This document shows positions 27,493 through 53,079 of a stretch of DNA of 64,000 nucleotides, piece by piece (position 1 is the first letter of the stretch; every line of letters starts with the position of its first letter). Source of the DNA: Tetradesmus obliquus (lineage: Eukaryota > Chlorophyta > Chlorophyceae > Sphaeropleales > Scenedesmaceae); assembly GCA_030272155.1 (NCBI GenBank), contig CP126205.1, positions 980,501 to 1,044,500 on the forward strand, given 5' to 3'. Under the pieces are notes generated by a model. That model had not been told where the DNA came from and made no database searches. It worked only from the letters and a program-made list of their open reading frames with translations. The position numbers and the translations under genes were made by a program.

Positions 27493-30396
27493 CCTGCGAC
27501 GCTGCAGCTCCTGCAGCACTGCCTGAAGGTGGAGGAAGCGGGGGAGGCGGCGGCGCAGCACCCCCTGCTGCTGCTGCTGCTGCTGAGGGTGGTGGTGGCG
27601 GCGGCGGCGCAGTGGCAATTTGCTGCTGCTCCTGCTGCGTTGCAGCAGCTGCGGCAGACGGCGGCAGCGGCTTGTGCAGCAGCACTTCTGTATCCAGCAG
27701 GGCCTGCAGCAGCAGCGCTACCGCGGCACGTGGGGACACACCTGCAGGCCCGTCCCCGGCTGCTGCTGCTGCTGCTGCTGGTGCGGCTGCTGTGGCTGCA
27801 TTGGGATCTGGGTGCTGCTGAATGACCAGCTGCACCACTGCAGCCACATCTGCAGGACTCAGCTCGCCCAGAGCCTGCTGCAGCTTCTCACCATCTGCTG
27901 CTGCTGCTGCATCGCTGGCGTCTGCAGGGCTTTCTGTAGCACAAAGTTGCTGGATCGCAGTTGGCAGCTGCCCCTGCAGCTGCTCTGCCACTACACCCTC
28001 AAACTTCCCCTGCTGCTGCAGCCCCGCGGCTAGCTTCAGTACAGCCAACGGCTCACTTTTCAGTGCTTCCTGCAGGGCTTGCCCCTGGCTAGCTTGCAGC
28101 GCTGTCAGGCCTTTGATCAAGCTGGTGAGGCCAGCCTGATGCTGCTGCTGCTGGCCTGATAGGTCCTGGAGCTCTTTCTGAAGATCAGGAAGCGCCAGCC
28201 AAACTGGCAGCTGCAGCCGCCGAAGGGTGAGCTGCTGCTGCAGCTGGTCCACGAGCTGCTGCTGCTTGGGGGAGTTGGCACGCAGGCAGCCCAGCTGCGC
28301 GAGCACGCTGCAGGCCTGCAGCAGCTGCGCGCAGGCGCAGCTGCTCAGCAGCGGCTGCAGCTCGTCGCACAGCCTGCAAGTTGTCAAGGGTCAGGAACAT
28401 GCAGGCACTGGTGAGTTGGATGCGCGCAGACATTGAGGAGATGCAAACGACACAGCCTGCAGGCCTGCAGCAGCTGGGCAAGGGGCGCAGCTGCTCAGCA
28501 GCGGCTGCAGCTCGTCGCACAGCCTGCAAGTTGTCACGGGGCAGGAACATGCAGGCACTGGAAAGTTGAGTGCACTGCAGACGTCAAAGAGATGCAAAAC
28601 AAACAGCCTGCACGCCTGCAGCAGCTGAGCGGGGGCGTAGCTGCTCAAAAGCGGCTGCAGCTCGCCGCATAACCTGCGGGTGTGGATAAGCAGGCAAGGA
28701 TCATTGCTGAGTGGGAGTGCCGAGGCAGCTCCTTCACAAACGCACACACCGCACCATATTTTACAGCGTCAAACATTTAAAAGTATACACAGCACAAGCT
28801 ACTCGCTTTGCCAGCAGCTGCGGCGGCAGCTCCTTCAGCATCCCACTACCGCCAGCAGCCAGCCCAGTCAGCACCCCGAGCAGCAGATCCACGCCAGCAG
28901 CAGCCACAGGCCTCCGCAGGTACTCCGCTGCCGAACCAGGACATTGCCATGCAAACAGCCTATACCACGCTTGCAGCTGCAGAGACAGCTGCACTCACGC
29001 AGCCCACAGCAGCAACTGCCTCTGTCAAACCAACCCACTACAAGAGCCAGAACTTGCTCAAGCCACTCACTTTGCCAGCAGCTGCGGAGGCAGCTCCTTC
29101 GCACTTGCAGCGCCACCAGCAGCCAGCCCAGTCAGCACCCCGAGCAGCAGCTCCACGCCAGCAGCAGCCACAGGCCTCCGCAGGTACTCTGCTGCTGTCT
29201 TGCGCAGCAGCTTTGCATAAGATGCAGCAGCAAGGCCCAGCCGGGCATGGCAGGCAAGTAATGCCGCCAGCTGAGGCGGGCTGAAGCGCGGGAGCGTGTC
29301 CTGCAGCACCTGTTTACGTTTGGCAATGGGGAGCGCAGCAGCACGGCAGTGGCGGGCGTGTTGATCAGGATGCTTGCTATGGCTTGCAGGTTCGTGCTGG
29401 AGCTGGGCCTCGCTGCATGCCATTGCACGCTGGGTGAGCCGCCGGATTAAGTCAGCTGCTTCGTCCCTGCAGACAATTGCTCCACTGCTGCTGCTGCTGC
29501 TGCTGCTGCTGCTCACCTTCGACACCACGTCCTGCAGCTTCTGCTGCAGCACCAGCCACGCTTCACGTAGCCCCATAAGCAATCAAACCGCGGCATCCAC
29601 TGAATCCGGTACAGAAACCTGCTGCTGCTGCTGCTGCTGCTGCTGCTCACCTTTGACACCACGTCCTGCACCTTCTGCGGCAGCACAACCCCCGCCTCAT
29701 GCAGCCCCATCAGCAATCGAATCGCAGCATCCACTGAATCTATACAAGAACCTGCTGCTGCTGCTGCTGCTGCTGCTGCTCACCTTTGACACCACGTCCT
29801 GCACCTTCTGCTGCAGCACAAGCCACGCTTCACGCAGCCCCATCAGCAAAATTGCAGCATCCACTGAATCTGTACAGGAACCTGCTGCTGCTACTGCTGC
29901 TGCTGCTCACCTTTGACACCACACCCTGCACCTGCTGCGGCAGCGCAACCCCCGCCTCATGCAGCCCCATCAGCGATCAAACCAAAGCACCCACTGAATA
30001 TCGTACAGGGACCTGCTGCTGCTGCTGCTGTTGCTCATCTTTGACACCGCATCCTGCACCTTCTGCGGCAGCACAACCCCCGCATCATGCAGCCCCAACA
30101 GCGACCAAACCAAAGCATCCACTGCATCCAGTATAGACACCTGCTGCTGCTGCTCACCTTTGACACCACACCCTGCACCTTCTGCTGCAGCACAACCCCC
30201 GCCCCATGCAGCCCATCAGAGTTTCAAGTACTACATCAACCGAATCCGTGCAGACACCTGCTGCTGCCGGTTTTGCTGCTCACCTTTGACACCACATCCT
30301 GCACCTTCTGCTGCAGCGCCGCCCCCGCCTCATGCAGCCCCATCAGCGATCAAACCGCAGCATCCACTGAATCTATACACTGAATCTATACAAGAA

Positions 30397-30430
<34 letters not shown>

Positions 30431-32571
30431 ACCTTTGACACCGCATCCTGCACCTTCTGCGGCAGCACAACCCCAGCCTCATGCAGCCCCATCAGCGCCT
30501 CCAGCAGCAGCCTTGCCCCTGCATCCGCATCTTCCTTGTGTAGCCTTTTCAGCAGCGGCTCTGCCAGCAGCAGCGCCACACCTGCTGCTGCTGCTGCTGC
30601 CGCGCCGCCCTCGGCGAGGCCTGCCAGTGCTGCTGCTGCCACGAGGAAGGAGTCTGGCTGCTGCTTGAAGAGGCCGGAGTCTGTCAGATTTGTCAGCAGC
30701 GCTTCTACCAGGCTTTTGGGGATGGGACCTGCAGCAAAAGGTTGCCAACACACAAAGTTTAGACATCACGTTGCTGTGGGTGGTGCCAGCGTAGGCTGCA
30801 CCATCAATATTGAGGGAGGCAGGATTTGTAGCAGCACCGTAGAGCAATGCCATAACGGCATCACAATGGGCCATGCAGAGCTGCTATTGAAGTATTGTCG
30901 AAACAAGCTTCTACCGCGCAGGCAGCTTATGTGAATGACAACCGGATCATGACCAAATCCCATAACAGTGTGTTACTGACAGCATGCTGCCCTGCTACGC
31001 AACATCAGATCATTCTGCCTGTATACACAAATGCGCAAGCACGCACACACCCTGCTTCCACACTCACCTAGCCCAGCTTGCGCCACAGCAGCAAGGCACT
31101 CCAGCAGCTGCAGCTGCTGCGCAGCCTCAACCTCTTTCCAGCCACTTGCACACCAGCTTGAGCACTATACTACCAGACAACACCAGACTGAGCATTGCCC
31201 GCTACTTGAAACCAGATCACCACAAGAGTACCCGCAGCATGCTGCCTGACCACCCTGCCTCAACACAAACAAGCAGGTATGTGCATTGCCCCCCAGCTTG
31301 CTCACCTAGCCCAGCTTGCGCCACAGCAGCAAGGCACTCCTGCAGCTGCAGCTGCTGCACAGCCTCAACGCCCGCCAGTACCCTAGCCAGCCATTCAAAT
31401 ACCATCCCAGAATATGATACCTCATTAACGCCGCATAATAATTGAAATAAGATTGCCACAACAGTACCCGCAGCATGCTGCCTGAGCATCCTGCCTCATC
31501 ACAAACAAGCAAGTATGTGCATTGGCCGCACATGCTCACCTAGCCCAGCTTGCGCCACTGCAGCAAAACACTCCAGCAGCTGCAGCTGCTGCGCAGCCTC
31601 AACCTCTGATAGCACCCTCGCCAGCCACTCGCACAGAAACTGCACGCCAGCGTGCTGCTTAAGCTGTCGCTGCTGCTGCTGGCTGTCTGCCTGGCGCTGC
31701 AGCCGCTGCAGCTGCTCCGGCTGCTGCGCTGCTGCTGCCAGCATCTCGGCCGCCTGCACTGCATCTGGGGCAGTCAAGTTGGGCAGCCGCGCTGCTTGCT
31801 GCTGGCTGGCCAGGTGCTGCAGCAGGCTCAGCAGGTTCTGTAGTATCAGCAGCAGCAGGTCAGAACATGGAAAATGTGGCAGCACAGCAGGGGCGCAGAT
31901 GTCAGTCAATGGTGGTGGCTGGCCAGGTGCTGCAGCAAGCTCAGCAGGTTCTGTGGTAAAAGTGAGTTGAGAACACAAAACGGCGGCAGCACAGCAGGCA
32001 CGTAGATGTCAGTTGATGGTGGTGGCTGGCGATGGTGGTGGCTGGCGAGGGGCTGTTGCAGCAGCAGCGGGTGGTGACGAGTTGCAGTGGAGCAAAAGGT
32101 GCAGTGCAGCAGAGCGGCAGCCAAACAATCAAGGGCGGCTGCTTGCCAAAGGGGTCGCAATGCAGTGCCCAGCAGCAGAGCTGCTCTGCCACAGACGCAA
32201 TTGAGCGTGTCAGCATTCAAACAGGCACCATCATGACTAGCTCCTCGACACCACCCAAGCTGCAGCACCCATTCTCAGAGAAAATGCAAGTGAACCGAAA
32301 CTGCAGCTTCAGATATCAAAGCGCGCGCATCGCAAACTGCACAAGCAAAACTTTGCAGCAGCCCACCTGCAAGTTGCCAGCTGCAGACTGCAGCAGATGT
32401 GACACTGGGGGCATCATCACACCAGTGGGTGCCCCACCCACACCCACCGCTGCTGCTGCTGCTGCTGCTGCTGCAGCTTGTGGGGGCACCGGCCCAAGCA
32501 CTACCACCTGCTGCTGCTGCTGCTGCTGGGGTGCGGCAGGTGGTGGATGCGGAGGCACAAGGTTGTTGCCG

Positions 32572-32608
<37 letters not shown>

Positions 32609-33863
32609 TGGGGACATGCGGATTGCTTTGCCCCATGGGTACTAGGATAGGCCCTGCTTTATGATGCTGCTGCTGCTGCTGTTGCATGCTGCCAGGCGGA
32701 AGTGCAGGTACTGCCCCAACAGCTGACGCCACTACAGCAGCTGCTGCTGCTGCTGCTGCTGCTGGTTGCAAAGGTGCGCCGCCACCTGTACTGCCTGGGG
32801 CAGATGGTGGTAGCGGCCCCGGAGGCAGTACAGCAGCCGCTCCAAGCATGCTAGGAGGCATGCTGCTGTTCCCTAGAGCACCATGCATCATCATCATCAA
32901 CTGTTGCTGCTGCTGCTGCTGGTGCTGCGGGGGTGGAGTGGCTGCTGGCTGTGGCACATCCAGGCGATCAAGCACCAGCACACCACCTGCAGGGCTCAAC
33001 TGCTGCCCTAGCTGCAGCACTGGGATGTGCTCATGGCCTTTGCCCTGCTGTAGCTGCTGCTGCTGAAGTGGCTGCTGCTGCTGCAGCGGGTGCAGCATGA
33101 GCTGTGGGATGTGCTGCTGCAACAAGTGCGGCACAGGGAGCAGCACTGGCTGCTGCTGCGGCTGCTGTTGCAGCATGGGCGATGGAACCCCATGCTGCGG
33201 TGGTGCAGGTGGACGCACCTGCTGCTGCTGCTGCTGCTGCTGCTGCTTGTTAGGCGGTTCAGCAGTATCCCATCTACTGCGCCCTTTGCGCTTGGGTGCT
33301 GCTGCACTGCTGCTGTTGTCATTGCGTGTTTCCTGCAAGCCTGAGGCTGGGTGAGTCTGCATTGGTGCTCCACCAGGCGGTACACTAGGTGGTGCACTAG
33401 GTGGTGCAGGATACGTTTGCTGCTGCAGCTGCTGCATCTGCGGGGGCCCTGGTAGCTGCTGCTGCTGCGGCTGCTGCTGGTTGTAATGGTGCTGCAGAGG
33501 CGACTGATTCGAGCCATGCCCCTGCTGCTTTCGCTGCATACGCCTGGGCTGCTGTTGCTGCTGCTGCTGCTGCTGTGCTGCTACCTGAGCATGCTGTTGC
33601 ATCAGATGTTGTACACCAGGCGGCAGTTGGCTGCTGAGTTGCTGCTGTTGCAGCTCCTGCCAAGATCGCAGGTCTGCAGGTGCTGGCAGCAGCTGCTGCT
33701 GCTGCATGGGCAGAATGCCTGCAGGACCAAACCCCATCTGTCCACCCTGAGCCGGGTTTTGCACCTGGTGTTGGCCAGCGGGCGGTTGCTGTGCCCCATG
33801 GGCAGCAGAGGTGCCTCTGCGGCCCTGGCCCCTGTGACGCTGCTGCTGCGCAGCATCACGCAT
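21724..33863 (-). CDS. Very large Gln/Ala-rich protein with helical-repeat middle and RS-rich C-terminal exon
   Basis: Exon model: 32367-33863, 31540-31837, 30433-30728, 29071-29466, 27248-28373, 26282-26455, 25044-25281, 21724-24632. The first exon (start MRDAAQQQRHRGQ) is Gln/Pro-rich and contains KRKGRSRWDTAE, which fits a UHM-ligand motif of splicing factors. The middle exons are Leu/Ala helical repeats (FSPPQLAALLACHARLG, LVEALLTNLTDSG, ELLLGVLTGLAAGG) reminiscent of FASTK/OPR/RAP-type organellar RNA-binding proteins. The exon pair ending GWVLLQVSA is weakly RAP-like. The last exon has poly-Gln, poly-Ala, an RS stretch (SRSRSRSRSPLARRRRGKRS) and a KKNPHKGEVNGKLVVNCRKH block, and stops at 21724. 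A role in RNA binding or processing is inferred. The 30433/29466 junction is out of phase, so this may be two genes or an exon is missing. Confidence 0.55.
22979..23021 (-). repeat. Poly-Ala coding GCT/CAG tract
   Basis: In-frame alanine run of about 14 residues inside the last exon of the large gene. It is coding, unlike the intronic tracts. Confidence 0.8.
24915..24966 (-). repeat. Donor-side echo of exon 25044-25281
   Basis: TACTCACCAGGCACGACG and the following AACAGCAGCAGGTG match the 3' end plus donor of the exon at 25038-25082. It lies downstream in transcript sense. Confidence 0.8.
25337..25725 (-). repeat. Acceptor-side echoes of exon 25044-25281
   Basis: Four imperfect copies of the exon's 5' end and acceptor occur near 25350, 25480, 25585 and 25688. 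Each has GCAGCACTAC(A/C)AGGCAGTACGC-type sequence followed by CTACAG or CTGCAG in transcript sense. They lie upstream of the exon in transcript sense. Confidence 0.75.
25725..26030. repeat. Alternating purine-pyrimidine (CA/CG) tract
   Basis: About 300 bp dominated by CACACA, CGCGCG and GCGCAC steps with few breaks. It is intronic to the large minus-strand gene. Sequence of this type can adopt Z-DNA; nothing else is evident in it. Confidence 0.85.
26085..26180 (-). repeat. Donor-side echo of exon 26282-26455
   Basis: Encodes GLMLELWDAMAVALDKPEVG, followed by QQAQLTQ and a donor-like sequence. It matches the 3' half of the exon upstream in transcript sense (one residue differs, KPDVG). Confidence 0.85.
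26530..26855 (-). repeat. Three acceptor-side echoes of exon 26282-26455
   Basis: Near 26535-26590, 26680-26740 and 26800-26850 the minus strand repeats the exon start (VVESQVAVGGVFACSA-like) with a CTGCAGG- or GTTGCAGG-type acceptor. All three lie upstream in transcript sense. Confidence 0.8.
26997..27190 (-). repeat. Two donor-side echoes of exon 27248-28373
   Basis: Units starting at 26997 and 27120 repeat the exon end (HWYAPGELPQQLVQMVVE) with its GTGAG donor, in a period of about 123 bp. The true exon end is at 27248. Confidence 0.85.
28454..28690 (-). repeat. Two acceptor-side echoes of exon 27248-28373
   Basis: Two copies of the exon start LCDELQPLLSS occur at about 28460-28530 and 28610-28680, with TTGCAGGCTGTG-like acceptors. 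They lie upstream of the true exon start at 28373. Confidence 0.85.
28760..28925 (-). repeat. Donor-side echo of exon 29071-29466
   Basis: Encodes EYLRRPVAAAGVDLLLGVLT and KELPPQLLAK. The donor has decayed from GTGAGT to GCGAGT. Confidence 0.85.
29507..30432 (-). repeat. Seven tandem donor-side echoes of exon 30433-30728, each with a CAG tract
   Basis: Units begin near 29512, 29646, 29778, 29907, 30034, 30156 and 30280, with the true exon end at 30433. Each unit repeats LMGLHEAGVVLPQKVQDVVSK, or close variants, followed by AAG|GTGAGC and a (CAG)n run in transcript sense. A shared GATTCAGTGGATGC lead lies on the other side. Unit length is about 120-150 bp. Confidence 0.9.
31061..31400 (-). 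repeat. Two donor-side echoes of exon 31540-31837
   Basis: 31061-31155 and 31300-31400 repeat QQLQLLECLAAVAQAGLG with its TAG|GTGAG donor. Confidence 0.85.
31900..32050 (-). repeat. Acceptor-side echo of exon 31540-31837
   Basis: The exon start NLLSLLQHLA and its ACAG acceptor recur about 118 bp upstream in transcript sense. Adjacent intron sequence (TGGTGGTGGCTGGC) is repeated as well. Confidence 0.75.
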
Positions 33864-34421: not shown

Positions 34422-35242
34422 ATGCAGCGCTCCCAGCAGGGCCTTGCTGTGGCATACGCCCGTCTGCTGCAGATCAGGAGCTTTTACTCTTCTGCAGCAG
34501 CAGCCAGTGCAGATGCGGTGAGCATGGTCTCGTACCCGGAACTGCTAACACGTACTACTTCATAATCGCGGTGCTGACGGGGCTTCTTCGTTCCGCTCGC
34601 AGCCGAAAGTGAAGCTGTTAATCAATGGAGAGTTCAAGGACAGCAGCACCGACAAATGGATCAACGTCACAAACCCGGTGGGTGGACTCACACTGCTGCA
34701 ACAGCATCATGTTTTCCTTTTCCCTGCAACATCAACAGCCTTCCTGGCCTGCGGGTGCTGCATTCGCTGAAGTTACTCGTTCATATTGCAACTGCTATGC
34801 CACGGCATCCATGCGATGTTTACCATCTGGGTGACCTCTCACTTTTCAAGCCCTAGCAAGGTGGCATGCCGCTGCCTTCCCATGTGATCGAAGCCAGCCC
34901 TGACAACCATGTTTAATTGCAGCATGCTCACTATTGATCGCATTCTGATCGCATTCTGACAAACTGCATGCAAATATCACCTATTGATTGGCTCCAGCTT
35001 CCTGAGCTGGCAGCATGCTCGACCCTCTGCCTCCTCTCAGGAGAGTCTGACTTGTCCTCTGTCATGTGTCTCCTGCAGGCAACGCAGCAGGTGGTCTCCC
35101 GCCTGCCGCTGACGACAGCAGCAGAGTTCAACGCAGCGGTGCAGGCAGCAAAGGACGCGTTCCCAGCCTGGCGTGCCACAGCCGTGCCAACCAGGCAGCG
35201 CGTCATGCTCAAGTTCCAGGAGCTCATACGGCAGCACTGGGT

Positions 35243-35281
<39 letters not shown>

Positions 35282-38200
35282 GCACGGCTTTTCTATTGCA
35301 CATGCGGGCAGCAGCGGGCAGTTCCCTGCAAGCAGTAGCCGTGACCTGTTGCGTGGGTGCCGCCCGTCAGTAGTAATTTGAGCGGTTGCCCTGATCGACT
35401 TCTGCCAGCACCTAACTGCTGATCAGACAATGCCTCCTGCTAGGGATGCATCACCCTCACGAATGAAAGTTAAAGCTTAGCGCTGCTATGTCGCTGCTGT
35501 TAACTACCTGCTTACCTCTGTCATCCCCTGCAGGATGAGCTGGCCAAATCTGTGACCACCGAGCAGGGCAAGACCTTCCAGGATGCAAAGGGTGACGTGT
35601 TCAGAGGCTTAGGTGGGTGAAGCAGCTCAACTTAAGTCGCCACATTCAATCAAATACAAGACCGTGCTTGAAGCAGCATTGATGGCAGCCAGGCATCACA
35701 AGCAGCTGTACTGCATTGCTCGCCTGTGCACTGCAGCAGTGCATGCCAAGCTTGCCAGGGACTGCAAAGCTCAGCCCATATAACTGATGCAGCAAGGACT
35801 GGCCCACATCCTTTGGCTGCTCAGCTGCTGCTGCTGCTGCTGCTGTGCCTCAGAGGTGGTTGAGGCTGCATGTGGCATTGCGCCAATGCTGATGGGTGAG
35901 ACGCTGGAGAACGTTGCTGCAGGCATCGACTGCTACAGCCTGCGCCAGCCGCTGGGGGTGAGTTGTGTTTGTGTTTGTCTGGCTGGCACAACAGGATGTG
36001 AAGTTGATGGCACAACAGGATGTGAAGTTGCTGCGCTTGATGGCAATCGGTTGATGGCGATTGTGCAGCAACAGCAGCAGCAGCGCTGCAGGCTGCATGC
36101 CATGAAGTTGTTGCTAGTGTCAGCAGGGATAAGCCCTGCAGCAGCAGGCTGGAGAACGTGGTGGCAGTCATCGACTGCTACAGCCTGCGCCAGCCGCTGG
36201 GGGTGATTTGTGCTTAGGAGTCAGCTGTGTGCCGTTCTGAAAGCAGCTGCACAACCGCAGTAGCTGCAGCATGTGGCTGCAGGCATCAACTGCTACTCGC
36301 TGCGCCAGCCGCCTGGAGTGAGTTGGGCAGACTGCCACTTGTACGGTGTTTGACAGCTGCATGAGCAGTAGCTGCGGCGTGTGGCTGCAGGTATGGACTG
36401 CTACAGCCTGCGCCAGCCGCTGGGGGTGAGTTGTGTTTGTGTTTGTCTTGCTTGCACAACGAGTTCTAGGGCTGCTGCGGTTGATGGCGACCGTGCCGCA
36501 ACAGTGGCAGCAGCGGCAGCAGCAGCGCCGCAGGCTGCACGCCATTCAAGTTGTTGCTGGTGTTAGCAGGGATATGCGCTGCAGCAGCAGGCTGGAGAAC
36601 GTGGCTGCAGGCATCGACTGCTACTCGGCGCGCCGGCCACTGGGGTGGAGTTATGGGTGCAGTGCATGATACATAACATGACATAACATGTTACTCCTTG
36701 CAGGTGTGTGCCGGCATCTGCCCCTTCAACTTCCCGGCCATGGTGCCGCTGTGGATGTACCCCATGGCCATCACAGCTGGCAACACCTTTGTGCTGAAGC
36801 CCTCAGAGAAAGACCCGGGAGCTAGCATCATGCTGGCTGAGCTGGCGCTGCAGGCGGGACTGCCAAAGTGAGCAAACATGTTGATAGATATGGTGGTTTG
36901 CAGCTGTGCAGAGTGCTGCTTGGTTTTGGGGTCTCCATGCAGGGATCAACACAACATGCTGAAGTGCTGCTCAGTAATGCACTGCACAGCAGCATGCGTG
37001 TGTTGTGGAACATAAGAGGCAGTAGGTGCCGTTATGCGCGTGAAAAGCCGAGGCGTGTGTTACTTCACCTACTTGCTGCTGTGTTGTTTCAGTCTCCCTG
37101 GGCTTGTTTTGCGCTTCACTTCTTTGTTTCCTGCCGCTTCTGCCGCACCTGCCTGAGCTGCAGGAGTGCGCTCATCACCACGCACTTCCTAGCTTGCACA
37201 TTGGGCCTGTTGATTCCCATTTTGCTGTTCTCCGGCATGCTGACTCCTGCACTTGCTGCAGCCGCCTGTCTCCTCACGGGTGTGCTCAACATCGTGCACG
37301 GCACACATGACGTGGTGAATCACGCTGGACCGCTCAAGTGTGTTTCCTTTCTTGCTTGCTGACGTGTCACGCTATGCTGTGCTGGCTTGCACGGGTGTGC
37401 TGAACATCGTTCACGGCACACATGACGTGGTCAATCACATCCTGGACCACCCCGACATCGCTGCTGACGCAATCCGCCTGTCGTCTGGCGCGTTCCATGC
37501 CTGTTTCATGCCTTTTGTTATGCTACCTCTCTCATCTGTTGCACCTGCTTGATGTGCTGATTCACAGGGGTGTGCTCAACATCGTGCACGGCACGCATGA
37601 CGTGGTCAACCACATCCTGGACCACCCCGACATTGCTGCCGTCAGTTTTGTGGGTGGTGACGCAGCGGGGCGCTACATCTACAGCCGCGCAGCAGCAAAC
37701 GGCAAGCGCGTGCAGGTGCGAGCGCGTATATGGGATTTCAGCTTATGCTGCAGGAATGATTGCAGGGTGAACCAGCAGCAGACGGCAAGTGTGTGCAGCT
37801 TTGGCCGTGTCTCTCGTGGCGTGCTGCACACTTGTTTTGACGCTTTGTATGTGCTGGACTTGGTACTGGACCACGGCGACATCGCTGTAGTCAGCTTCGT
37901 GGGTGGTGATGCAGCGGGGCGCTACATCTACGGCCGCGCAGCAGCCAACGGCAAGCCCGTGCACGTGCGGGCGTGTGTTAGTGGCAGGGGTTCAGGTTTT
38001 GAGCTTACGCAAAAGCCATGTGGTGTGAGTGTTACTGCAGAATGAAGCAGGAGCAATCGGGAAGTGTGAGCAGGGTTTGCTGCGGGGTGTACACATCAAC
38101 TCCACTGTCATCATTCAACCACGTGCGCCACTGCAGTTTTCCTGCTTCTCGTGTTGCTGCGCAGTGTAACCTTTGTGCCAAGAACTACGCAGTGGTGCCT

Positions 38201-39401
38201 GATGCAGACGTTGATTCTGCAGTCAAGGCGCTGACTGGCGCTGCTGCTGTCCCTGCTTGTTGTGTGTTTGTTCATGCAGTGCAACCTTGGTGCCAAGAAC
38301 CACGCAGTGGTGCTGCCAGACGCAGACGTTGACTCCACAGTCAAGGCGCTAACTGGCGCTGGCTTTGGTGCTGCGGGGCAGCGCTGCATGGCCATCTCTG
38401 CCGTGGTGTTTGTGGGCGGCTTTGAGCGTTGGCGGGAGCCAATGCTGGAAGCCGCAAAAACACTCAAGGTGGGCTGGGGCAGGCATGCTGATGGTCCTTT
38501 CTGTTCTGATTCAACGTTCCCTTCTTGCCTAATGAGCCTGTCATTGGCTCCCCAATCAGGCTCAGCTGGTCTGGTCTGCATACATGAAGGTCTTGATTTG
38601 GCTGACTGGCGCTGGCTTTGGTGCTGCGGGGCAGCGCTGCATGGCCATCTCCGCTGTTGTGTTTGTGGGCGGCTTTGAACGCTGGAAGGAGCGCATGCTG
38701 GAGGCTGCAAAGACGCTCAAGGTGGGCTGGAATGCATGGCTTTTTTGGTCTTGCTGCAATTGCCTTATGCGTTCTACATGGCCATGCCTGCCGTGATGTT
38801 TGTTTGTGGCGTCGTGTGCTGGACGGAGCCTATGCTGGCTGCTGCAAAGGCTCAGGTGGGCTGGGCGAGATGCATGCATGCATGCATGCATGCAGGTGTT
38901 TGCATGACTGTTTGGTATTGCTGTGTTTGCCATTGTGCAATCTGCATGGCCATCTCTGCTGTTGTGTTTGTGGGCGGCTTTGAGCGATGGCGGGAGCCTA
39001 TGCTGGAGGCCGCAAAGACGCTCAAGGTGGAGTATGGATGCATGCACATGTTCCGCAGGCCGTGGGGTCCTGACGCTGACGTGGGCCGCGTGATTATCTG
39101 CTCTGCCTTGTGTCCTCTCCCGGTATGCAATCAAACTGTGTTTGCAAATTAAATATATCTGAATATCTGAATATCTGAATCAAACTGTGTTTGCAGATTG
39201 ATTGAAATCTTCTTGCTGCAGGTCAACGGCGGCATGGAGCCCGATGCTGACGTGGGCCCCATGATCACGCCAGAGGTCACATGCAACCAGAGACTTCCCT
39301 TCTCCCCTTTTTGTTTATCTTGCTGCAGGTCAAAGGCGGCTGTGGGCCCCATATTAATCATAGACATGCTGTCTGTCTTTTCAATTTAGGGTTGTGTGTG
39401 C

Positions 39402-39442
<41 letters not shown>

Positions 39443-39897
39443 AGGTCAACGGCGGCATGGAGCCTGATGCTGACGTGGGCCCCATGACTGCTATGAGCTG
39501 CTGTCTGCTTTGAAAACTACATTATGTTGCAGCGTGCCCTGTTGCTGCTGGTTCTTCTGCTGCAGGCCTAGGCCAATGGGGGCATGGAGCCTGTTGTTGA
39601 CGCGTGACCCATGATCAAATTCTCTGCCAACCACCACAACCGTGACCTCGACTTTACTGCCACCCTGCGTGTATTGCAGGTCAACGGCGGCATGGAGCCA
39701 GACGCTGACGTGGGCCCCATGATCACGCCAGAGGCCAAGCAGCGCGCAGAGGCGCTCATCCAGGCAGGCATCGACCAGGTGCGTGCAGCTGCGGGGGGTA
39801 GAATTCAGAGGTACACTTTAAATAAGGTCCTGCTGGTGTCACCTCAACGTTGCTTGCATTCTTACCACACTTTCATAGTGACCCTGCCTGCTTGCTC

Positions 39898-39947
<50 letters not shown>

Positions 39948-41128
39948 ACCTCTGGTACTATAACAGGGCGCGCAGTGCCTGCTAGACGGGCGTGGTGTGA
40001 TGGTGCCTGGTTATGAGAAGGGCAACTTTGTGGGACCTACGCTGCTGGCCGGAGTCAAGCCACACATGGACTGCTACAAGCAGGAGATCTTTGGGCCCGT
40101 GCTGAGCTGCTTGGAGGTGGGTGAACTCACATGGTGTTGGTATGTTACGTTCATTGTTGTTACTTTGTTGTTGCATGAGTAATCCACCGCAGCAGCAGCT
40201 ATTGTATGCAGATGGGTTGCAAGGCACACATGGAGTGCTGCATGACAGCATGCTTGTATGGATGCAGACAAGGTTGTATCAATATTTGCTTGTCACTCCA
40301 CCTTGCTGCATGCTTGCTGTGCCGTGGTGTTCAAACGCCACGCCTATTGGTTGTGGCTGCAGGTGGACACCCTCGATGAGGCGATTGCGCTGGTGAATGC
40401 CAACCCCTGGGGCAACGGCACAGCCATCTTCACCGACAGCGGCTCAGCAGCACGCAAGTTCCAGCACGACGTACAGGTGAGGCAAGAGTGCTGCAAAACG
40501 TCTGCAGTGATTAAGGGTTTTTTTTTCGCACGGCTAGCATGGCATAGTCATTTTCACCGACAGCGGCTCAGCAGCACTCAAGTTCCAGCACGACATGCAG
40601 GTGAGGCAAGAGCGCTGCACAAGGATTGTGGGGCGTGATTCTTGGGTTTCTTTGCCATGCTCACCTGCTGTCGTTGTAGCTCTGCATGCTGACCAGGCTG
40701 GACACATTTCTCAGACAATGAATATATGTTTATCGGTTGCAACTGTTCTGCTGCAGCTGGGCATGGTTGGTATCAACGTGCCCATTCCTGTGCCGCTGCC
40801 CATGTTCAGCTTCACAGGCTGGCGCTGCATGCCAACCATCTTAGCCAAAGTAACCCAAAAGCCTTATTAAATTCGTCATATCTGCTCAATCATTCTGCTG
40901 CAGGTTGGCATGGTGGGCATCAACGTGCCCATCCCCGTGCCGCTTCCAATGTTCAGCTTCACCGGCTGGCGAGGCAGCTTTGTTGGCGACCTGCACATGT
41001 ATGGCAGGGCAGGAGTGCAGTTCTTTACACAGCCCAAGACAGTCACAGCAAAGTGGACGGCGCCCAGCGCTGCAGGCAGTGCTGTGGCGGGCGGCAGGAT
41101 GCCTGGCTTGGACAGGGTGGGGGCGTAA
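34422..41128 (+). CDS. ALDH6: Methylmalonate-semialdehyde dehydrogenase (CoA-acylating), mitochondrial
   Basis: Exons: 34422-34517, 34603-34677, 35079-35240, 35534-35612, 35854-35957, 36704-36867, 37568-37715, 38280-38468, 39680-39778, 39967-40116, 40363-40476, 40904-41128. All junctions keep phase and give 534 residues, the usual family length. The N-terminus [20 protein letters not shown] is Arg-rich and acid-free, followed by FYSSAAAA, fitting a mitochondrial presequence. Diagnostic blocks in order: [21 protein letters not shown] (oxyanion Asn), TFVLKPSE (cofactor-site Lys), [30 protein letters not shown] (catalytic Cys), [25 protein letters not shown] end. The family oxidises malonate and methylmalonate semialdehydes to acetyl-/propionyl-CoA in valine, thymine and uracil catabolism. 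Introns are full of partial exon copies, so automatic gene finders may mis-splice it. Confidence 0.93.
35241..35280 (+). repeat. (CAG)n tract starting in the donor of ALDH6 exon 3
   Basis: The donor reads GTGAGCAGCAGCAG and continues as an uninterrupted CAG run of about 13 units. Confidence 0.9.
36139..36650 (+). repeat. Four donor-side echoes of ALDH6 exon 5
   Basis: Copies of [17 protein letters not shown] end near 36205, 36317, 36427 and 36650. Three retain a GTGA(G/T)T-like donor; the last has TGGAGT. Two larger units also repeat the following intron sequence (GTTGTGTTTGTGTTTGTCT). Confidence 0.9.
37258..37475 (+). repeat. Two acceptor-side echoes of ALDH6 exon 7
   Basis: [15 protein letters not shown] occurs at about 37279 and 37397; the second extends to ILDHPDIAA. 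Acceptor AG has become ACG or CACG in both. They lie upstream of exon 37568. Confidence 0.9.
37850..37969 (+). repeat. Donor-side echo of ALDH6 exon 7
   Basis: Encodes [20 protein letters not shown], then NGKPVH and the donor GTGCGGG. It matches the exon 3' half. Confidence 0.9.
38125..38262 (+). repeat. Acceptor-side echo of ALDH6 exon 8
   Basis: GCGCAG acceptor, then [20 protein letters not shown] with KALTGA, missing one codon relative to the exon. Confidence 0.9.
38597..39028 (+). repeat. Three donor-side echoes of ALDH6 exon 8
   Basis: 38597-38720 repeats [20 protein letters not shown] through KTLK with a GTGGGC donor, including the catalytic Cys. 38811-38857 keeps only [10 protein letters not shown] plus donor. 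38938-39028 keeps [20 protein letters not shown] and on to KTLK. A (ATGC)n run lies between the last two. Confidence 0.9.
39222..39617 (+). repeat. Four acceptor-side echoes of ALDH6 exon 9
   Basis: GCAG acceptors followed by [18 protein letters not shown] (39222), VKGGCGP (39329), [14 protein letters not shown] (39444) and a decayed [11 protein letters not shown] (39567). The true exon starts at 39680. Confidence 0.9.
39405..39441 (+). repeat. (CTG)n tract fused to an echo acceptor
   Basis: Twelve CTG/GCT units ending CTGCAG, directly before the echo starting at 39444. Confidence 0.9.
39900..39948 (+). repeat. (CTG)n tract near the acceptor of ALDH6 exon 10
   Basis: About 15 units, some 18 bp before the exon start at 39967. 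Confidence 0.9.
40537..40600 (+). repeat. Donor-side echo of ALDH6 exon 11
   Basis: [17 protein letters not shown] followed by the same GTGAGGCAAGAG donor context as the true exon at 40476. Confidence 0.9.
40753..40830 (+). repeat. Acceptor-side echo of ALDH6 exon 12
   Basis: CTGCAG, then [20 protein letters not shown] with GWR; the similarity then ends. Confidence 0.9.
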
Positions 41129-41140
41129 GGTTGTTGCTCG

Positions 41141-41209
41141 ATTGCGGTGGATATCATCATCATCATGTTACCCATCAAGCCATAGCATCAACACCATTGC
41201 GGTGGATAT
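41141..41209 (-). mobile_element. 41-bp LINE-B stub with 14-bp target-site duplication
   Basis: ATTGCGGTGGATAT occurs at 41141-41154 and again at 41196-41209. Between them, 41155-41195 reads on the minus strand as the 3' end of LINE-B (DAMA stop, then TAACATGATGATGATG), as at 61601-61640. It lies just after the ALDH6 stop. Confidence 0.85.
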
Positions 41210-41286
41210 ATGTGGCAAGCGCAGTAGGAGGTGGAGTGCGTGCTGTGTTTTTTGCGTGCTGTAGCTGGTGCCAGCGTTTGTGAAAC

Positions 41287-41443
41287 GACAGCTTTGTTGG
41301 TGACCTGCACAGTTATGGCAGGGCAGGCGTGCAGTTCTTCACACAGCCCAAGACCGTGACGTGGAGGTGGTCCGCTCGAAGCGCTGCCGGCAGTGCAGTG
41401 GCGGGCGGCAGGATGCCTGGCTCAGACAGGGTAGGAGGTTGAA
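41287..41443 (+). repeat. 3'-side echo of ALDH6 exon 12, after the stop
   Basis: The frame stays open: [20 protein letters not shown], then a diverged tail ending [12 protein letters not shown] and a stop. It could serve as an alternative C-terminus only if spliced in. No good upstream acceptor is seen. Confidence 0.85.
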
Positions 41444-41662
41444 GGTGTAATGACATTCTGTGTTGCAGGTGCGCATAGTACACAGGAGAGGCGTTTGATG
41501 CAGCACGCTGCGTGTGCTGTGGTTGCTCTCTGTGTTGTAACGTGGGAACTTGGTGTTGCAGCCATGTTGCAGGAGTAGCCGGAGTTTGCAGGTGTTGACA
41601 TTCGTGAGACGCATCACAATCCAATCGGCTGGCTTGTGGTGTCACTTTCGTGGTTGTGTGGG

Positions 41663-42133
41663 ATTTACAACATGCCATACATGGCCACTAGGACAGTCAA
41701 CTTTGAATGACAGTAGTACGAAACGGTAAAGCAGGCATACACATTCCCCCATTACATGCAATTTCCACTACTGCCACTCCTGCTTCTTGCGAGGAAAACT
41801 TCACCTTCAATCTGAGCTACGGTGTCAACCAAGTGGCGTCACTGACAAGGTGTCACTACCCAGGCTACCAAGGACTACAAGAGGATGGAAGACTGTCAGT
41901 GCCGTTGCCCCCGAAGGGCATCGTGGCTCTTCGGGACGGCGCTGACCAGGTGTTGTTATGGTTGCAGGTAATACTAGACGACGTAGGAGCAGAAGCAGGA
42001 GCTGCACATGCTAATCTGAGGTTCAGCAGCCACGGTGGCCTTTCGGGGGACCACTTCTTGCCATGTGAGTGCGCATTATGTTGCATGATGCTGATGCTTG
42101 TAATGAATGCAATTCGGCAACTTTCCTTATATG
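41663..42133 (+). repeat. 471-bp direct repeat, copy 1
   Basis: Nearly identical to 43754-44224; the one difference I see is CAATTTCCAC against CAATTTACAC. It carries an open frame with SCEENFTFNLSYGVNQVASL and a splice-like TTGCAG|GTAATA point. It looks like part of an exon of a secreted-type protein. The parent gene is not recognised. Confidence 0.9.
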
Positions 42134-43753: not shown

Positions 43754-44224
43754 ATTTACAACATGCCATACATGGCCACTAGGACAGTCAACTTTGAATG
43801 ACAGTAGTACGAAACGGTAAAGCAGGCATACACATTCCCCCATTACATGCAATTTACACTACTGCCACTCCTGCTTCTTGCGAGGAAAACTTCACCTTCA
43901 ATCTGAGCTACGGTGTCAACCAAGTGGCGTCACTGACAAGGTGTCACTACCCAGGCTACCAAGGACTACAAGAGGATGGAAGACTGTCAGTGCCGTTGCC
44001 CCCGAAGGGCATCGTGGCTCTTCGGGACGGCGCTGACCAGGTGTTGTTATGGTTGCAGGTAATACTAGACGACGTAGGAGCAGAAGCAGGAGCTGCACAT
44101 GCTAATCTGAGGTTCAGCAGCCACGGTGGCCTTTCGGGGGACCACTTCTTGCCATGTGAGTGCGCATTATGTTGCATGATGCTGATGCTTGTAATGAATG
44201 CAATTCGGCAACTTTCCTTATATG
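43754..44224 (+). repeat. 471-bp direct repeat, copy 2
   Basis: Offset of exactly 2091 bp from copy 1. The copies end abruptly on both sides and the termini are not TG..CA, which argues against LTRs. Confidence 0.9.
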
Positions 44225-45059: not shown

Positions 45060-47210
45060 TGACCTGGAAGCACTACACCTTGTGCTTGTTCTTGGCCGTT
45101 GTGCCGGGGTTATGCTGGGTAAGGGAGGAAGCAGTTGTTCATCCGTTTTGCCTAATACGTTCATGTGCTTTAATGATGCAGCAGGAGCGTGTCATGCTGC
45201 CGGAGCATGTAAGCCTTTTACATACCCGACAACTAAGGTACATGATGGTTGCTGCAGATTCAGCTCAAAAATCTGGCAGGGGACGCAGCAGCCACCTTCT
45301 ACGGCCTGAAACAGAACTCTTCAGCAACAAGCCGAGCAGGGCAGCAGTTCAGCTGGAGCCCAGGTGATCCACATGCCGACACAGGCAGTGACATGGCTGT
45401 AGCTCATGCAGCCCCTGGCAGTTCTGGCGTGGTCCTGCACAGCAGTGCTGCCGTGGAAGCAGTTTCTTCAAGTACTGGCAGTACTTGAGTGGTCCTGCAC
45501 AGCAGTGCTGCCTTGGACGCAGTTCCTGCAAGTGCTGGCAGTGCTAGCATGGTCCTGCACAGCAGTGCTGCCGTGGCAGCACTTAAGGAAGCTTCCTGCA
45601 AGTGATGACAGCACTAGCGTGGTCCTGCACAGCAGTGCTGACATGGCAGCAGCTCCTGCAAGTGATGGCAGTACTAATAGCGTGGCCCAGCACAGCGGCG
45701 CTGACGAGGAAGCAGTTCCTGCAGGTGTTGGCAGTACTAGCGTGGTCCTGCACAGCAGCGCTGACGAGGAAGCAGTTCCTGCAGGTGTTGGCAGTACTAG
45801 CGCGGTCCTGCACAGCAGCGCTGGCACAGGCGTTGCTCATGCAGACGCTGGCAGTGTTATGGCTGTCATTCCTGCAGCTGATGCTAGTGCTGACGCAGGC
45901 CTGGCAGCGGATGCCTTCCTGCCGACCAGGGCTCTGCGTGGCGCACAGCTGTTGAACAGCTCTGGCTCCGAGGCAGCTGTAAGTCACGCCACATGGGCCA
46001 ACACCAGCAGCGCTCGCCGCGCTCGCCAGCCCCTTGCTACAGCATCAATCTAGTCAGCTGGGCTGCCTGGCAGCAACCACTTACCAGGAGCCCTGCCCCA
46101 GCAGGTCTTGGCAGCACATGGCTCACTCCACTCAGCATAACAAGAGACAGTTGTGCAGCGTCAAAATTACGCGCTACATGCAGACATCTGCAGACATCTA
46201 CAGATGCTTGGTGATGTCGCCCTATCCCCTTGTGTGTCCCTGTTTCCTGAAGTGAAGTGCTGCAGCAATGCTACGCTGGAGGTCGAGCGGCGGCAGGCCA
46301 TGGCGAGGCAGCAGGCCACAGTGACACCCGGCTACTGCAGCTCACTCACAGATGGAGTTCAGAAGCGCTGCAAGCAGGCAATTGCAGCGTTGCCAACAGC
46401 AGTGGCCAAAGTGTGCGGCAGTCTTCATGCAGCAGCCAATGCGACCACTGCAACCTTGGGCGCTTCAGAAGTTACTGTTCCGGACAAAGCTGCTGCACCC
46501 CCTTGTGCCGCGTCCAAGATCGTGGACGCCATGATGGACATGCTACTGCACGCAGTGGAGTACCTTCCGCGAGGTGGGCATATGCCCGACACAGCAAGCG
46601 CTTGCAGGACTAGCCTATGTTGCCCACAGCTACGTTGCTGAAAGTCGCCCGTAAGGCACATCTGTGGGCATGTTGGTACATGCGTCAGGCGCGTCATTCT
46701 GTGTTTGTCCTCGCTTGTTCTGCTAATGTTTGTACAATGTCATACATGCAGATCATCCAAGTGTCTGATGCTGCTTGAGGCTCTCTGCGTATGCTTAGGC
46801 TTATGCCTGGCTCTCTGCTTATGCCGTCATCTCTCAATGCCACACTACCCAACAAACCCTAATGCAAATGGCAGCACTGCATGTGACGTGCATCACATCT
46901 GACAGCTCAGCTACTGGTACTTTGAGATACAGGGCACACCCGTTGCGGCGGGTTACTTTCCTGAACGCGTTGCTGCTTTGGTTCACCAATGCCATGTTGT
47001 TCATCCTGTACTTGTGCTTGTTTTGCTTGCTTGCAGGCATCGGTCTGCTGCTTCACGACAGGCTATTCAGTGTAGAGCCTGCAGCAGCCACCTACACAGT
47101 GTTGGTGCTGGCAGTTTTTGTGCTGGCAGGGTGCTTGCCAGTAGCGCGCCTGCTGGCCGCATGCATGCTGGCATTAATCAAGTTCCCTATGAGGCATGTC
47201 CAGTGGCAGG
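45060..47210 (+). CDS. Hypothetical Cys-rich, repeat-containing membrane protein (fragmentary model)
   Basis: Possible exons: about 45100-45260 (SCSSVLPNTFMCFNDAAGAC), 45259-45365 (QLKNLAGDAAATFYGLKQNS), a repeat-rich frame through 46053, 46250-46620 (CCSNATLEVERRQ, YCSSLTDGVQKRC, several Asn-X-Thr sites) and 47036-47210 (hydrophobic LVLAVFVLAGCLPVARLLAA). The Cys-rich ectodomain-like parts followed by a membrane segment suggest a cell-surface protein. The first minisatellite units contain in-frame stops, so either they are not coding or the locus is decayed. I do not recognise the family, and I cannot show that these exons form one transcript. Confidence 0.3.
45415..45832 (+). repeat. 60-bp minisatellite, about seven units
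   Basis: Unit close to GTGGTCCTGCACAGCAGTGC plus TGACGAGGAAGCAGTTCCTG. The later units encode the 20-residue repeat VVLHSSADEEAVPAGVGSTS. Early units are interrupted by stops. Confidence 0.85.
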
Positions 47211-49355: not shown

Positions 49356-52300
49356 ACAACCAAGCCCGCCTTGGGCCGACAATCCCTGACCACCATGAGC
49401 CCCACGGAGCGCCAGCCCACTACACCCGGCGTGATCATGCCAGGAGGCAAGCAGCCCATGCTCAAGTTGCAGCAGGTGGGGTCACTGCGGCTGGTGGTAA
49501 GTGTCATCCACGACACTGCCATGCTTGGGGCGACCCTTGACCTGTTTGGTTGAGACAGCGGCTGCCTGCGCCTGCGCCTTTGCATGCTAGCAGATGTGCC
49601 GGAGTTATTTGGGAAGGGCAATTGAGCTCCTTTGTACGGGAGAGCAGTCTGCCTAGATATGTGATGTTTTTCCCACAGCGTCAACAGTCGCCTGCAGCCA
49701 CCGATGCTGGCGGTGCTGGCCTGGGGCCTGCCCCTACATCAGCTCTCCATGCCTCTGTGGCACTGCAGTGACCACTCCTGCTTGATGCATCAGTTCTCGT
49801 ACAACCGCCATGCCAATTCCTTCTCCTGCTGCTGCTGCTGCTGCTGCTGGTGGTGGTAACCGTCTGCCTGTTGTTGTCTCAACTTCCTGTCCTGCAGCTC
49901 ACAATGCCTTCCTCAGGTGGCCCAGCCAGTTCCGCCATCGGCTCCAAAAAGCGCCAGCTCATGGTGCCCGGCGTGGATATGCCGCCAGGAGGCAAGCGGC
50001 CCACTCTCATGGTGCAGCAGGTGGGCGCGCATTGCGTGGGGTTGATTCAGAGGCTGGTGATCAACGAAAAATGATGTATTTAATCTTTCACTGTAATAAC
50101 AGACAGGTGGTGGAGTGACGCTGTGCATGGCAGGCAGGTGCTGAATTGATGCTGTGCATGGCTGCTTTGCTGCATGCTGCTGTCTGGAATACGATGCTGC
50201 TGGCATGCTGCCCTGATGCTCGCGGCAGCGATGAGTCAGCCAGCAACCTGTGCAGCTGCTCGTATGCTTGTCAAGCATGCCCGCCTGGCAAATGCATTGT
50301 CTTGTGGCATTGTTTCCATGTGTTTGCCAGCAGACCCCTCACTGATGCTGCTGAAATCTGACAAGCCCTAATGTGGGTCTCCTTGCAGGCTGGCACTGCC
50401 CCAGACAGTCCTGGCATCGTACGGTGTCTGCCCCGCCAGCTGCAGCGCCCTCCGACTTGGTGACCGCAGCAAAAGCAGCGGCAGCAGCACCAGACGAGTC
50501 TGCGGTCTCCTCTCCTGCAAAGCCCTGCAGCCCCGCTGCTGCAGCAAAGCCCGCAGAGGGGACAGCACCAGGGGCAGCAGAAGCGGATAAGGAGGTGGCA
50601 GCAGCAGCAGCGGCGGCAGCAGCGGTGATGACCAGCGTGCCAGGCATGGCCAGCTCCGACCATGTACAGCTGCTGGCAGGAGCACAGAGCGTGCCAGGCA
50701 TACCAAGCTCTTACCAGGCGCAGCTGCTTGCAGCAGCTGAGGCAGAGACTGCCACTGCCCTGAAGGCCTACCAGGTGGCAGCAGATGACGTGAAGGAGGT
50801 GAGCCAGCTGGCAAGGTGCTTTGCAAGCAACATTTGCAAGATGCGCAGGCTTGCATGCAGCTTGGTCTGCTGCAGGAATGTGAAAGGGACTGCAGCAGCT
50901 TGCAGGAAGCACGCAACCAAGCTGAACCTCAGCTTGTTGGGATGGTCTGCTGTCTTGGTGTTTTTTGCTGCATCCTCACAATGTGGCTCTTTGCTTACAG
51001 CGTCGACATCAGCCAGTATTCACAGCTGCTGGCGGTGCTGGCCTGTGCTCTACATCAGCTCCATACGCCCCCTGTGGCACTGCAGTGCCCTTCCTGCAGG
51101 GTACTCAATTGTCGCACTACCATCATGTCCATTCTTTCTGCTGTTGCTGTTGCTGCTGCTGCTGTTGCTGCTTATCGCCTGCTTGCCGTTGCAATTTCCA
51201 ACTTCACTCCTGCAGCCCGCCAAGCCCGCCTCAGGCGGCCCAGCCAAGCCCGCCATCGGCTCCAAAAAGCGCCAGCTCATGGTGCCCACTTGCAATATGT
51301 CACCAGGAGGCAAGAGGCCCACCCCGATGGTGCAGCAGGTGGGCGCGCATGGGGTCGATGTACTAATGCTGCTGTTTAATTATAATTGACGCATATATAT
51401 GTGTTGTGCTGTTCAGTGTGTTGGCAGGCAGGTGGTGGATTGGCGCTGTGCATAGCTGCTTTGCTGCATGCTGCTGTCTGCAACACGATGCTGCTGGCAT
51501 GTAACCCTGGTGCCCGCGGCAGCGATGAGTCAGCCAGCAACCCGTGCAGCTGCTCACATGCTTGTCACGCATGCCAGTCTGGCAGATGCATCGTTTTGTG
51601 GCGCTGTTTACGTGTGTGTGTCAGCAGACCCTTCACTGCTGCTGAAACCCGACATGCCTCTGTGTGCTGCTCCTTGCAGGCTGGCACTGCCCCATCCAAT
51701 CCTGGCACCGCATCAGTGCCTGCCCCATCAGCTGCAGCGGCTTTCGAGCCCCTCACCAAAACTACAGCAGTAGCAGCAGCACCAGCAGAGTTTGAGGCTT
51801 CCTCTGCTGCACAGCATCCAAGGCCCTCCAGCTCCGCTGCTGCAGCAAAGCACGCAGATGAGACAGCACCAGCAGCAGCAAAAGAGGATGAGGAGGTGGC
51901 AGCAGCAGCAGCCGCAGCAGCAGGAATGGTGCTCAGCGTGCCAGGCATACCCAGCTCTGACCTGGCGCAGCTGCTGGTAGGAGCACGTGCTGGTTTTGCA
52001 GCTGTCAGTGCAGCATCTACAGCAGGCTATGCAGCTGTTCAGCACTCGCCAGGAGAGGCACAGCAGTGGGCAGGTGGTACTTATGAACAGCTGCAGGCAC
52101 CAGCTGCATGCCTGTCAGCTATCGTGGCGCCACATGCACTTCAAGTGCAAGTGCTGAACCATCAGCCGCCACAGCAGCACGCTGCAACAGCGTTAGCACA
52201 GGAGGCAGCTGCTTTTCAGCAGACAAAGACGGCGAGCGCGATCGCCAGCGATATGCAGGTGCGGCATAACCTCTTTGGACAGCTATATGGCAGTCGTCTG

Positions 52301-53042
52301 CAGATCGTGTGGCTTCCTGTAATGACCGCAATCAGCTGTTGAATGAAGCCAATTTGCCTGGTTATTTTTGCGAAAATGCAACACTGGTGGCCATTTCTAT
52401 CCGTTGGTGCATGGGTGCTGCTATGACTGCGCTGCCACCGGCTGCGGCATCTTGCCTCCAATGCTGCTGCTACTGCTGCTACGCCGCCTGCTGGTGGTTG
52501 AAGGACGTATTCAACATAACGCCAGCACATACACACATCCGGGTTGCTGTGTTTTGTTTTCAACTTTTGGATGCATCGCTTTGCCCTGTTGTGTGTATGC
52601 AGGTGACACAGGTAACGCAGCCGGGCGCTGCCAACATGGTGACGCAGCAGACACGTGTCCCCATCAAGTGCCTTGAGGTGCGCGACCTGCTGCCCAGGCG
52701 CATCAAGCCCCTCGCGTTGGATGAGCTGCTGCGTGGGCGCACCATCAGCCAGGTGCGTCGCGTCACAGCTTTATTACACTGTTCTGTCAATGTTACTTTG
52801 CTCGATAGTGTGCTGCTTGTTTGGCCTCCTTTGTCAGCCGCCGACAGAGTGTGAATGTTGCTGGCGTTTTGATGCCGTCGGGTGGTTGCAGCTGCAGCGG
52901 GTGATTATCAATGCGTTTTACACTATCGTATGGCTGAATTGTCTGCTGCTGGGCCTTCACACCGCAGGAACCCAAGTCTGCCATCGCTCACACCATCAGC
53001 CCGGCGCTACTAAATCCAGAGATCCCCGCGGGTGCGGCCTGA
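49356..53042 (+). CDS. Unrecognised gene built from repeated phase-0 exons
   Basis: A 40-41-codon exon occurs at 49356-49475, 49898-50020 and 51216-51338 (GSKKRQLMVPGVDMPPGGKR and variants, ending MVQQ), always between CTGCAG and GTGGG. Ala-rich exons follow at 50389 to about 50800 (frameshifted after AGTAPDSPG) and 51680-52258 (AGTAPSNPGTASVPAPSAAA, ending ASDMQ). Then come 52603-52752 (CLEVRDLLPRRIKPLALDEL) and a terminal exon 52968-53042 (EPKSAIAHTISPALLNPEIP, stop TGA). All exon lengths checked are multiples of three, so most combinations would stay in frame. No domain is recognised. It may continue from the Clp-like exons upstream, which are also phase 0, or start separately. Confidence 0.45.
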
Positions 53043-53079
53043 CGGGCCCCACACACCACCTCTACAGCTCCAATCAGGC

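Follow-up and report, generated by a model that had tools for sequence, protein, structure and literature searches.

How do the introns of a gene come to contain pieces of its own exons? The question is raised by a 64-kb stretch of the Tetradesmus obliquus genome (contig 15, positions 980501-1044500, in a genome of 104.66 Mb and 17 contigs), hereafter the window, which contains the intact gene ALDH6, encoding methylmalonate-semialdehyde dehydrogenase (MMSDH). Partial copies of six of its 12 exons, which we call echoes, lie in its introns and 3' flank. Such echoes are direct in orientation, follow a polarity set by the exon end from which they derive, recur at many places in the genome, decay almost neutrally outside ALDH6 and, in at least one case, have recently expanded into an array. 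Our preferred reading, held with some but not great confidence, is that a widespread process of short local direct duplication, which would not need to target exons, becomes visible in the exon-edge echoes. The process is real, widespread and largely explicable, and it leaves one puzzle, the intron half of the duplicated unit.

The exon structure of ALDH6, reconstructed by reading its splice sites, extends over 34422-41128 on the plus strand and gives a single open reading frame of 534 amino acids:

34422-34517, 34603-34677, 35079-35240, 35534-35612, 35854-35957 and 36704-36867, plus strand: ALDH6/MMSDH exons 1-6 (open reading frame, TIGR01722 for residues 1-276 of the protein, relative P0001)
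37568-37715, 38280-38468, 39680-39778, 39967-40116, 40363-40476 and 40904-41128, plus strand: ALDH6/MMSDH exons 7-12 (open reading frame, TIGR01722 for residues 1-276 of the protein, relative P0001)

Residues 1-276, the only part submitted, match the NCBIfam family TIGR01722 (MMSDH) with E = 5.6e-109 and 365 bits, the family cut-off of 448.5 bits being a whole-protein value. The closest relative of the protein is the transcript-derived P0001 (93% identical); identity is 76% to the protein of Monoraphidium neglectum and 77% to that of a record labelled Chrzof1, which may be read as Chromochloris zofingiensis. These protein relatives suggest a sphaeroplealean green alga as the host. For T. obliquus itself, a 108-Mb assembly with a mean intron length of 462 bp has been described (PMC5966456).

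Self-comparison of the window and exon-by-exon searches detected 18 partial copies, of exons 5, 7, 8, 9, 11 and 12, a count that leaves out two 26-nt pieces (exons 7 and 9). The exon-by-exon search found 17 of the 18 with E-values from 2e-7 to 8e-40, the remaining one (39318-39352) being detected by self-comparison only; rows of that search in which a stretch matched itself, offset by one base, were left aside. Exon 5 has four copies, all downstream; exon 7 has two upstream and one downstream, plus its weak 26-nt match; exon 8 has one upstream and three downstream; exon 9 has four upstream, plus its 26-nt piece; exon 11 has a single downstream copy; and exon 12 has one upstream and one in the 3' flank. 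The 17 intronic copies account for 1433 of the 5102 intron nucleotides (28%). The copies are as follows (percentages are identities of the match):

36148-36215, plus strand: exon 5 echo 1, 3' part of the exon and donor (91%)
36263-36325, plus strand: exon 5 echo 2 (83%)
36381-36460, plus strand: exon 5 echo 3, 3' part, donor and 35 nt of intron (94%)
36591-36655, plus strand: exon 5 echo 4 (83%)
37248-37331, plus strand: exon 7 upstream echo, acceptor region and 5' part (79%)
37375-37464, plus strand: exon 7 upstream echo, acceptor region and 5' part (88%)
37866-37976, plus strand: exon 7 downstream echo, 3' part and donor (87%)
38125-38243, plus strand: exon 8 upstream echo, ~43 nt of intron, acceptor and 5' part (78%)
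38601-38730, plus strand: exon 8 downstream echo A, 3' part and donor (89%)
38774-38877, plus strand: exon 8 downstream echo C, decayed (74%)
38942-39054, plus strand: exon 8 downstream echo B, 3' part and donor (86%)
39217-39279, plus strand: exon 9 upstream echo, TGCAG acceptor and 5' part (95%)
39318-39352, plus strand: exon 9 upstream echo, decayed fragment (self-comparison family D11)
39440-39487, plus strand: exon 9 upstream echo, acceptor and 5' part, preceded by (CTG)n (96%)
39570-39617, plus strand: exon 9 upstream echo, decayed (79%)
40541-40653, plus strand: exon 11 downstream echo, 3' part, donor and intron (81%, gapped)
40731-40829, plus strand: exon 12 upstream echo, acceptor and 5' part (83%)
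41289-41446, plus strand: exon 12 3'-end echo in the 3' flank (84%)

Upstream copies hold the acceptor side and the 5' part of the exon, and downstream copies the 3' part and the donor side, the copy in the 3' flank carrying the 3' end of exon 12. Judged by hand, this polarity holds at all nine copy-bearing exon ends; an automatic rule called eight of the nine concordant, the ninth being an echo-echo pair adjoining a CTG run. The earlier note had listed the same six exons and claimed a strict polarity, both of which we recovered, whereas its description of the affected exons as 'every second exon' was mistaken. Every copy is truncated at one exon end and none is a complete exon with acceptor and donor. 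Identity is graded, from 74 to 96%, and a single exon end can have as many as four copies. For exons 1-4, 6 and 10, the exon-by-exon search gave no matches except those containing CTG/CAG runs. No inverted copies of ALDH6 exons were found, the minus-strand matches being driven by CTG/CAG apart from that of exon 8 against its own stretch. The overhang of the copies past the splice site, estimated by eye in ALDH6 and other pairs, ranges from 0 to more than 30 nt; a footprint-like stop at the splice site was considered and set aside in view of this variation. An origin of the echoes from a paralogue was set aside, as the scored genome matches contained no second ALDH6.

Intact exons border the copies, all of which sit within introns or the 3' flank, and the reading frame requires no new intron; the transcript-derived 534-amino-acid protein of the relative contains no inserted copy, an observation that concerns the relative only. 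The proposal of the earlier note that such copies are tolerated since the intact exon remains is supported. One echo of exon 7 (37866-37976) has a Gly codon where the ALDH6 exon has Ser; relative P0001 also has Gly at this position and the echo may keep the ancestral residue.

ALDH6 is not an isolated case. We compared 314 kb in total, comprising the window and 20 fixed-position stretches, each of 10 kb, over the 17 contigs (264 kb), and five more stretches that served as a replication set (50 kb). Using a first, complexity-based filter that removed multi-copy arrays, at least one direct pair of copies less than 1 kb apart occurred in 15 of the 20 stretches. Later pair counts, for which microsatellites were masked instead, gave 201 direct and 2 inverted pairs within 1 kb in the first set with the window, and 45 direct and none inverted in the replication set. 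In total, local copies were overwhelmingly direct (246 versus 2, counted as alignment pairs and not as independent events). The copied blocks mostly measure 40-150 nt and their copies mostly lie 100-500 nt apart.

Other ALDH genes, chosen by Pfam match and not by their repeats, provided a view independent of the codon-score gene finder described below. In the ALDH gene of contig 14, the 5' part of both exon cores is copied upstream and the 3' part downstream, a 28-nt internal piece being present as well, and the similarity continues through the intron (e.g., 86% over 212 columns, ~46 of them core). One ALDH gene on contig 1 has one copy pair at its exon core, and two further ALDH genes had no copies in the stretches fetched around them. 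In the sampled stretch L028, a 100% identical array of period 137 with a coding-like block and the right polarity is a recent expansion of an exon-edge copy. For the recent arrays of L024 and L023, the coding score establishes no relation to exons.

The polarity was also evaluated outside ALDH6 with a self-trained codon-preference score, which assigned strand and frame to each pair and identified as exon the copy with coding sequence beyond the block; it gave the correct frame for all 12 ALDH6 exons, although these had been among its training data. All four flanks were available for 136 of 140 pairs, 113 of them outside ALDH6. Among these 113, 47 were coding-like and 29 had one clear coding extension, corresponding to 26 exon ends, of which 25 were concordant (13 donor-type and 12 acceptor-type) and one discordant. 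In the replication set, where exon ends were merged by eye, five of six ends were concordant and one weakly discordant, all from two of the five stretches (L033 and L035). Overall, 30 of 32 callable exon ends outside ALDH6 obey the polarity. A family-search check, carried out by eye on Helicase_C (92 places), AAA (32), DEAD (37) and kinase (157 matches), showed among the listed matches three clear overlapping partial ones, all with the right polarity (two Helicase_C on contig 14 and one AAA on contig 12), together with ambiguous cases such as C15:1399073/1399280 (kinase) and C7:5449444/5449606 (AAA). The widespread process proposed by the earlier note is supported by the recurrence of direct pairs and by the polarity in the further stretches, the replication set and the contig-14 gene. 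The polarity is no separate surprise, as it must result whenever a local direct duplication leaves the exon unharmed.

The later fate of the copies was read from their substitutions. The 33 exon-echo pairs outside ALDH6 show 69 changes at first, 54 at second and 122 at third codon positions (769, 769 and 767 sites), which gives difference rates of 0.080 at positions 1+2 and 0.159 at position 3, with a ratio of 1.99. We estimate that an unconstrained echo next to an exon under constraint would yield a ratio of ~1.7-2, and the copies outside ALDH6 drift close to neutrally. This count excluded pairs with a discordant strongest extension, more than 3 gap columns or a low coding score, as well as the repetitive 49-54 kb stretch and, by hand, four ALDH6 echo-echo pairs; its ALDH6 rows retain a few splice-side nucleotides. 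A regression intercept of 0.138 outside ALDH6 would point to silent divergence at birth, but small counts bias it and it was given no weight. Functional or coding constraint on the echoes, hinted at by an earlier ALDH6 count (23, 32 and 98 changes at the three codon positions in 17 comparisons with shared exons), then appeared weak, and is unnecessary outside ALDH6 given the ratio of 1.99.

A simple birth lesion could produce such copies, namely a backward joint from an intron point to an exon point, made by end-joining of a staggered break or by a replication slip. With one breakpoint in the exon and the other in the intron, a direct duplication would give one of two arrangements, the intact exon and then its 3' part, or the 5' part and then the intact exon. 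Since a duplication straddling a splice site would survive only where a complete exon is kept, the upstream copy should carry the acceptor and the 5' part, and the downstream copy the 3' part and the donor. The copies would mostly be skipped during splicing, and intron length would be shaped by the balance of gains and losses. The earlier note had proposed tandem duplications of this kind, one end lying in the exon and the other in the intron. This idea and its generalisation are largely supported, in that the orientation and the polarity agree with it, whereas the intron half of the unit finds no match for most copies.

This last point is one of several observations that weigh against local duplication as we have described it. 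If a tandem unit is present in two copies, the sequence past the echo is expected to match that past the exon. The intron part does match in the contig-14 ALDH gene and for ALDH6 exons 5 (echo 3 belongs to a longer 77% match, 35913-36202/36381-36645) and 11 (the match fills most of the 124-nt spacing), and the whole unit is doubled without a gap in the contig-14 gene and largely so for exon 11, an arrangement not seen in most pairs. For most copies the intron half is unrecognisable, even where the exon parts are 90-98% identical. Twelve of 64 splice-side flanks exceeded the 95th percentile of mismatched controls (3.2 expected) and five the 99th; the spacer resembled a flank (z ≥ 5) in 8 of 39 pairs of at least 90% identity, a set made under the first filter that includes array and echo-echo pairs; and the match spanned at least 80% of the spacing in 1 of 66 coding-like versus 12 of 48 non-coding pairs. 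With a drift of 8% in each copy the flanks should stay alignable, as many non-coding pairs in the sample do. The choice of coding-like pairs enriches for mostly exonic blocks, and this accounts for some of the contrast, though not for the missing homology; the abrupt pair ends are partly an artefact of the first filter, and the L028 pair turned out to be a member of the 100% identical array. The recent arrays, those of L028, L024 and L023 among them, have fractional copy numbers (values of 2.43, 2.58 and 2.75 occur), as if the block alone, not the whole unit, had doubled first. The polarity also has its exceptions: two of the 32 ends are discordant, of which L019 947/1080 has the look of an echo-echo pair and L035 3422/3594 was called weakly amid copies ~172 nt apart, and under a looser rule the 47 coding-like pairs divide into 39 concordant and 8 discordant. 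Finally, 11 ALDH6 pairs have 18, 31 and 72 changes at the three codon positions, a ratio of 2.93 (p = 0.023 against the upper bound of 2) and hence more silent change than the free-echo model allows.

Simple tandem duplication followed by drift does not, as a full account, fit most copies, whose intron homology is missing. A genome-wide search with ten spacers (1123 nt), which skips very common words, detected no dispersed family apart from the CAG-rich matches of one spacer; the spacers thus look unlike mobile elements or filler from elsewhere. The missing homology might reflect a template that already differed at birth, a very rapid turnover of introns through nested events, or a doubling of the block alone, three candidates between which one genome offers no choice.

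The first of them leads to an alternative that we consider possible though rather doubtful, in which an exon break is repaired by copying from the homologous chromosome, carrying a different intron, and the new end is then joined to the old one. This would yield in one step the new exon, a foreign intron piece, the old exon part and the old intron, so that a single joint would account both for the polarity and for the loss of intron homology slightly past the splice site, and the third-position excess of ALDH6 fits a diverged template. However, the ratio of 1.99 outside ALDH6 requires little extra silent divergence at birth, and the idea would depend on hypothetical alleles with near-identical exons and unalignable introns. 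Only tentatively, then, can the introns of this lineage be seen as rewritten by failed repair between diverged homologues, through exon breaks, templates from the other haplotype and end-joining. If this were true, each event would leave an echo and a foreign intron piece, the echoes would be a fossil record of exon breaks, and introns would grow and diverge via such accidents.

Improbable, in our opinion, is that gene conversion, or selection acting on functional (alternative) exons, has preserved the likeness of old tandem copies. This would explain alike blocks amid unlike introns, and GT is kept at 15 of 21 echo donors scorable by eye. Nevertheless, some echoes have decayed (74-83%), substitutions outside ALDH6 look neutral and each copy is cut at one exon end. 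Moreover, two echoes share differences from their exon, five silent ones for exon 8 and two for exon 7 (counted by eye), which suggests from the sequences that these exons have changed since the duplication and have not overwritten their echoes, unless the echoes share an ancestor. It is very unlikely that fragments were copied and inserted at nearby sites in direct orientation. Spacers that are mostly neither duplicated nor found elsewhere would agree with such insertion, but it predicts ~41% of tolerated copies on the wrong side, a share computed from ALDH6 exon sizes and gaps alone, against the 2 of 32 observed (P of at most 2 = 1.3e-5), and leaves unexplained why inverted copies are so scarce (2 of 248 pairs). 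We are likewise strongly disinclined to see an assembly artefact in which two haplotypes or strains were joined in series: alike exon parts with different introns would result, and yet one exon end can have four copies, divergence is graded (74 to 96% identity), multi-copy arrays occur and many loci are affected on a 17-contig assembly. Introners (mobile intron-like elements) and transposons that leave target-site duplications can almost be dismissed, since, although the spacers are bordered by direct repeats, these are variable and mostly 40-150 nt long, and the ten spacers showed no dispersed family bar the CAG-rich matches in the search that skips very common words.

Several other repeats and neighbouring features were observed. 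An open frame of 515 amino acids (32316-33863, minus strand) lies in a CTG/CAG-rich stretch that adjoins ALDH6, and a 471-nt direct repeat (41663-42133 and 43754-44224, 99.8% identical, 2.1 kb apart) just 3' of the gene reflects a recent event. Elsewhere in the window there are tandem arrays with a spacing of ~108-174 nt (29485-30497, 16050-17157, 45389-45859, 62488-63139 and 53065-53367) and repeats of ~1.0-1.2 kb with 76-80% identity (49675-51986 and 50633-54441), possibly an internally duplicated gene. In the sample, L026 1-3959 is a satellite-like array (period ~275 nt, 95-97% identity). Two DEAD-domain matches of equal score and query range, C2:8541825 and C2:8545417, lie 3.6 kb apart, which suggests a recent tandem segmental duplication.

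More than one quarter of the intron sequence of one gene is thus recognisably derived from its own exons, and similar echoes exist at many other places. Since exons stay constrained, comparison with them offers a fixed standard for recognising, orienting and dating old duplications, and both intron growth and the tolerance of splicing for nearby decoy sites become countable. The many decoy exon ends also call for caution in gene finding and RNA mapping.

The lengthening of introns is often attributed to transposons. In tandem exon duplication and mutually exclusive exons, whole exons with both splice sites are copied into the adjacent intron; the copies described here share that location, but they are cut at one end. 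In the literature searched, which left most subscription journals outside its scope, exon-edge echoes were nowhere described as pervasive; three known systems come close. End-joining of breaks with overhangs makes small tandem duplications (PMC8355091), i.e., short, direct and local duplications through break repair that offer a plausible birth event, although the units presented there are tandem, whereas here the sequence between most copies shows no recognisable duplication. In the introns of the green algae Chlamydomonas and Volvox, tandem repeats are denser towards the intron ends (PMC3887541) and, as here, concentrate near exon junctions; that study treats repeat motifs and is not known to relate them to the neighbouring exon or to polarity. 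Also close is intron gain by tandem duplication, with examples in ATP2A1 and potato RdRp (PMC4974935), where a short duplication touching an exon likewise leaves an exon-like copy and splice sites in an intron. As described in that source, either an AGGT-bearing segment of an exon or a duplicated piece of intron and exon gives rise to a new intron, whereas in T. obliquus it is the existing introns that lengthen, with the coding sequence unchanged.

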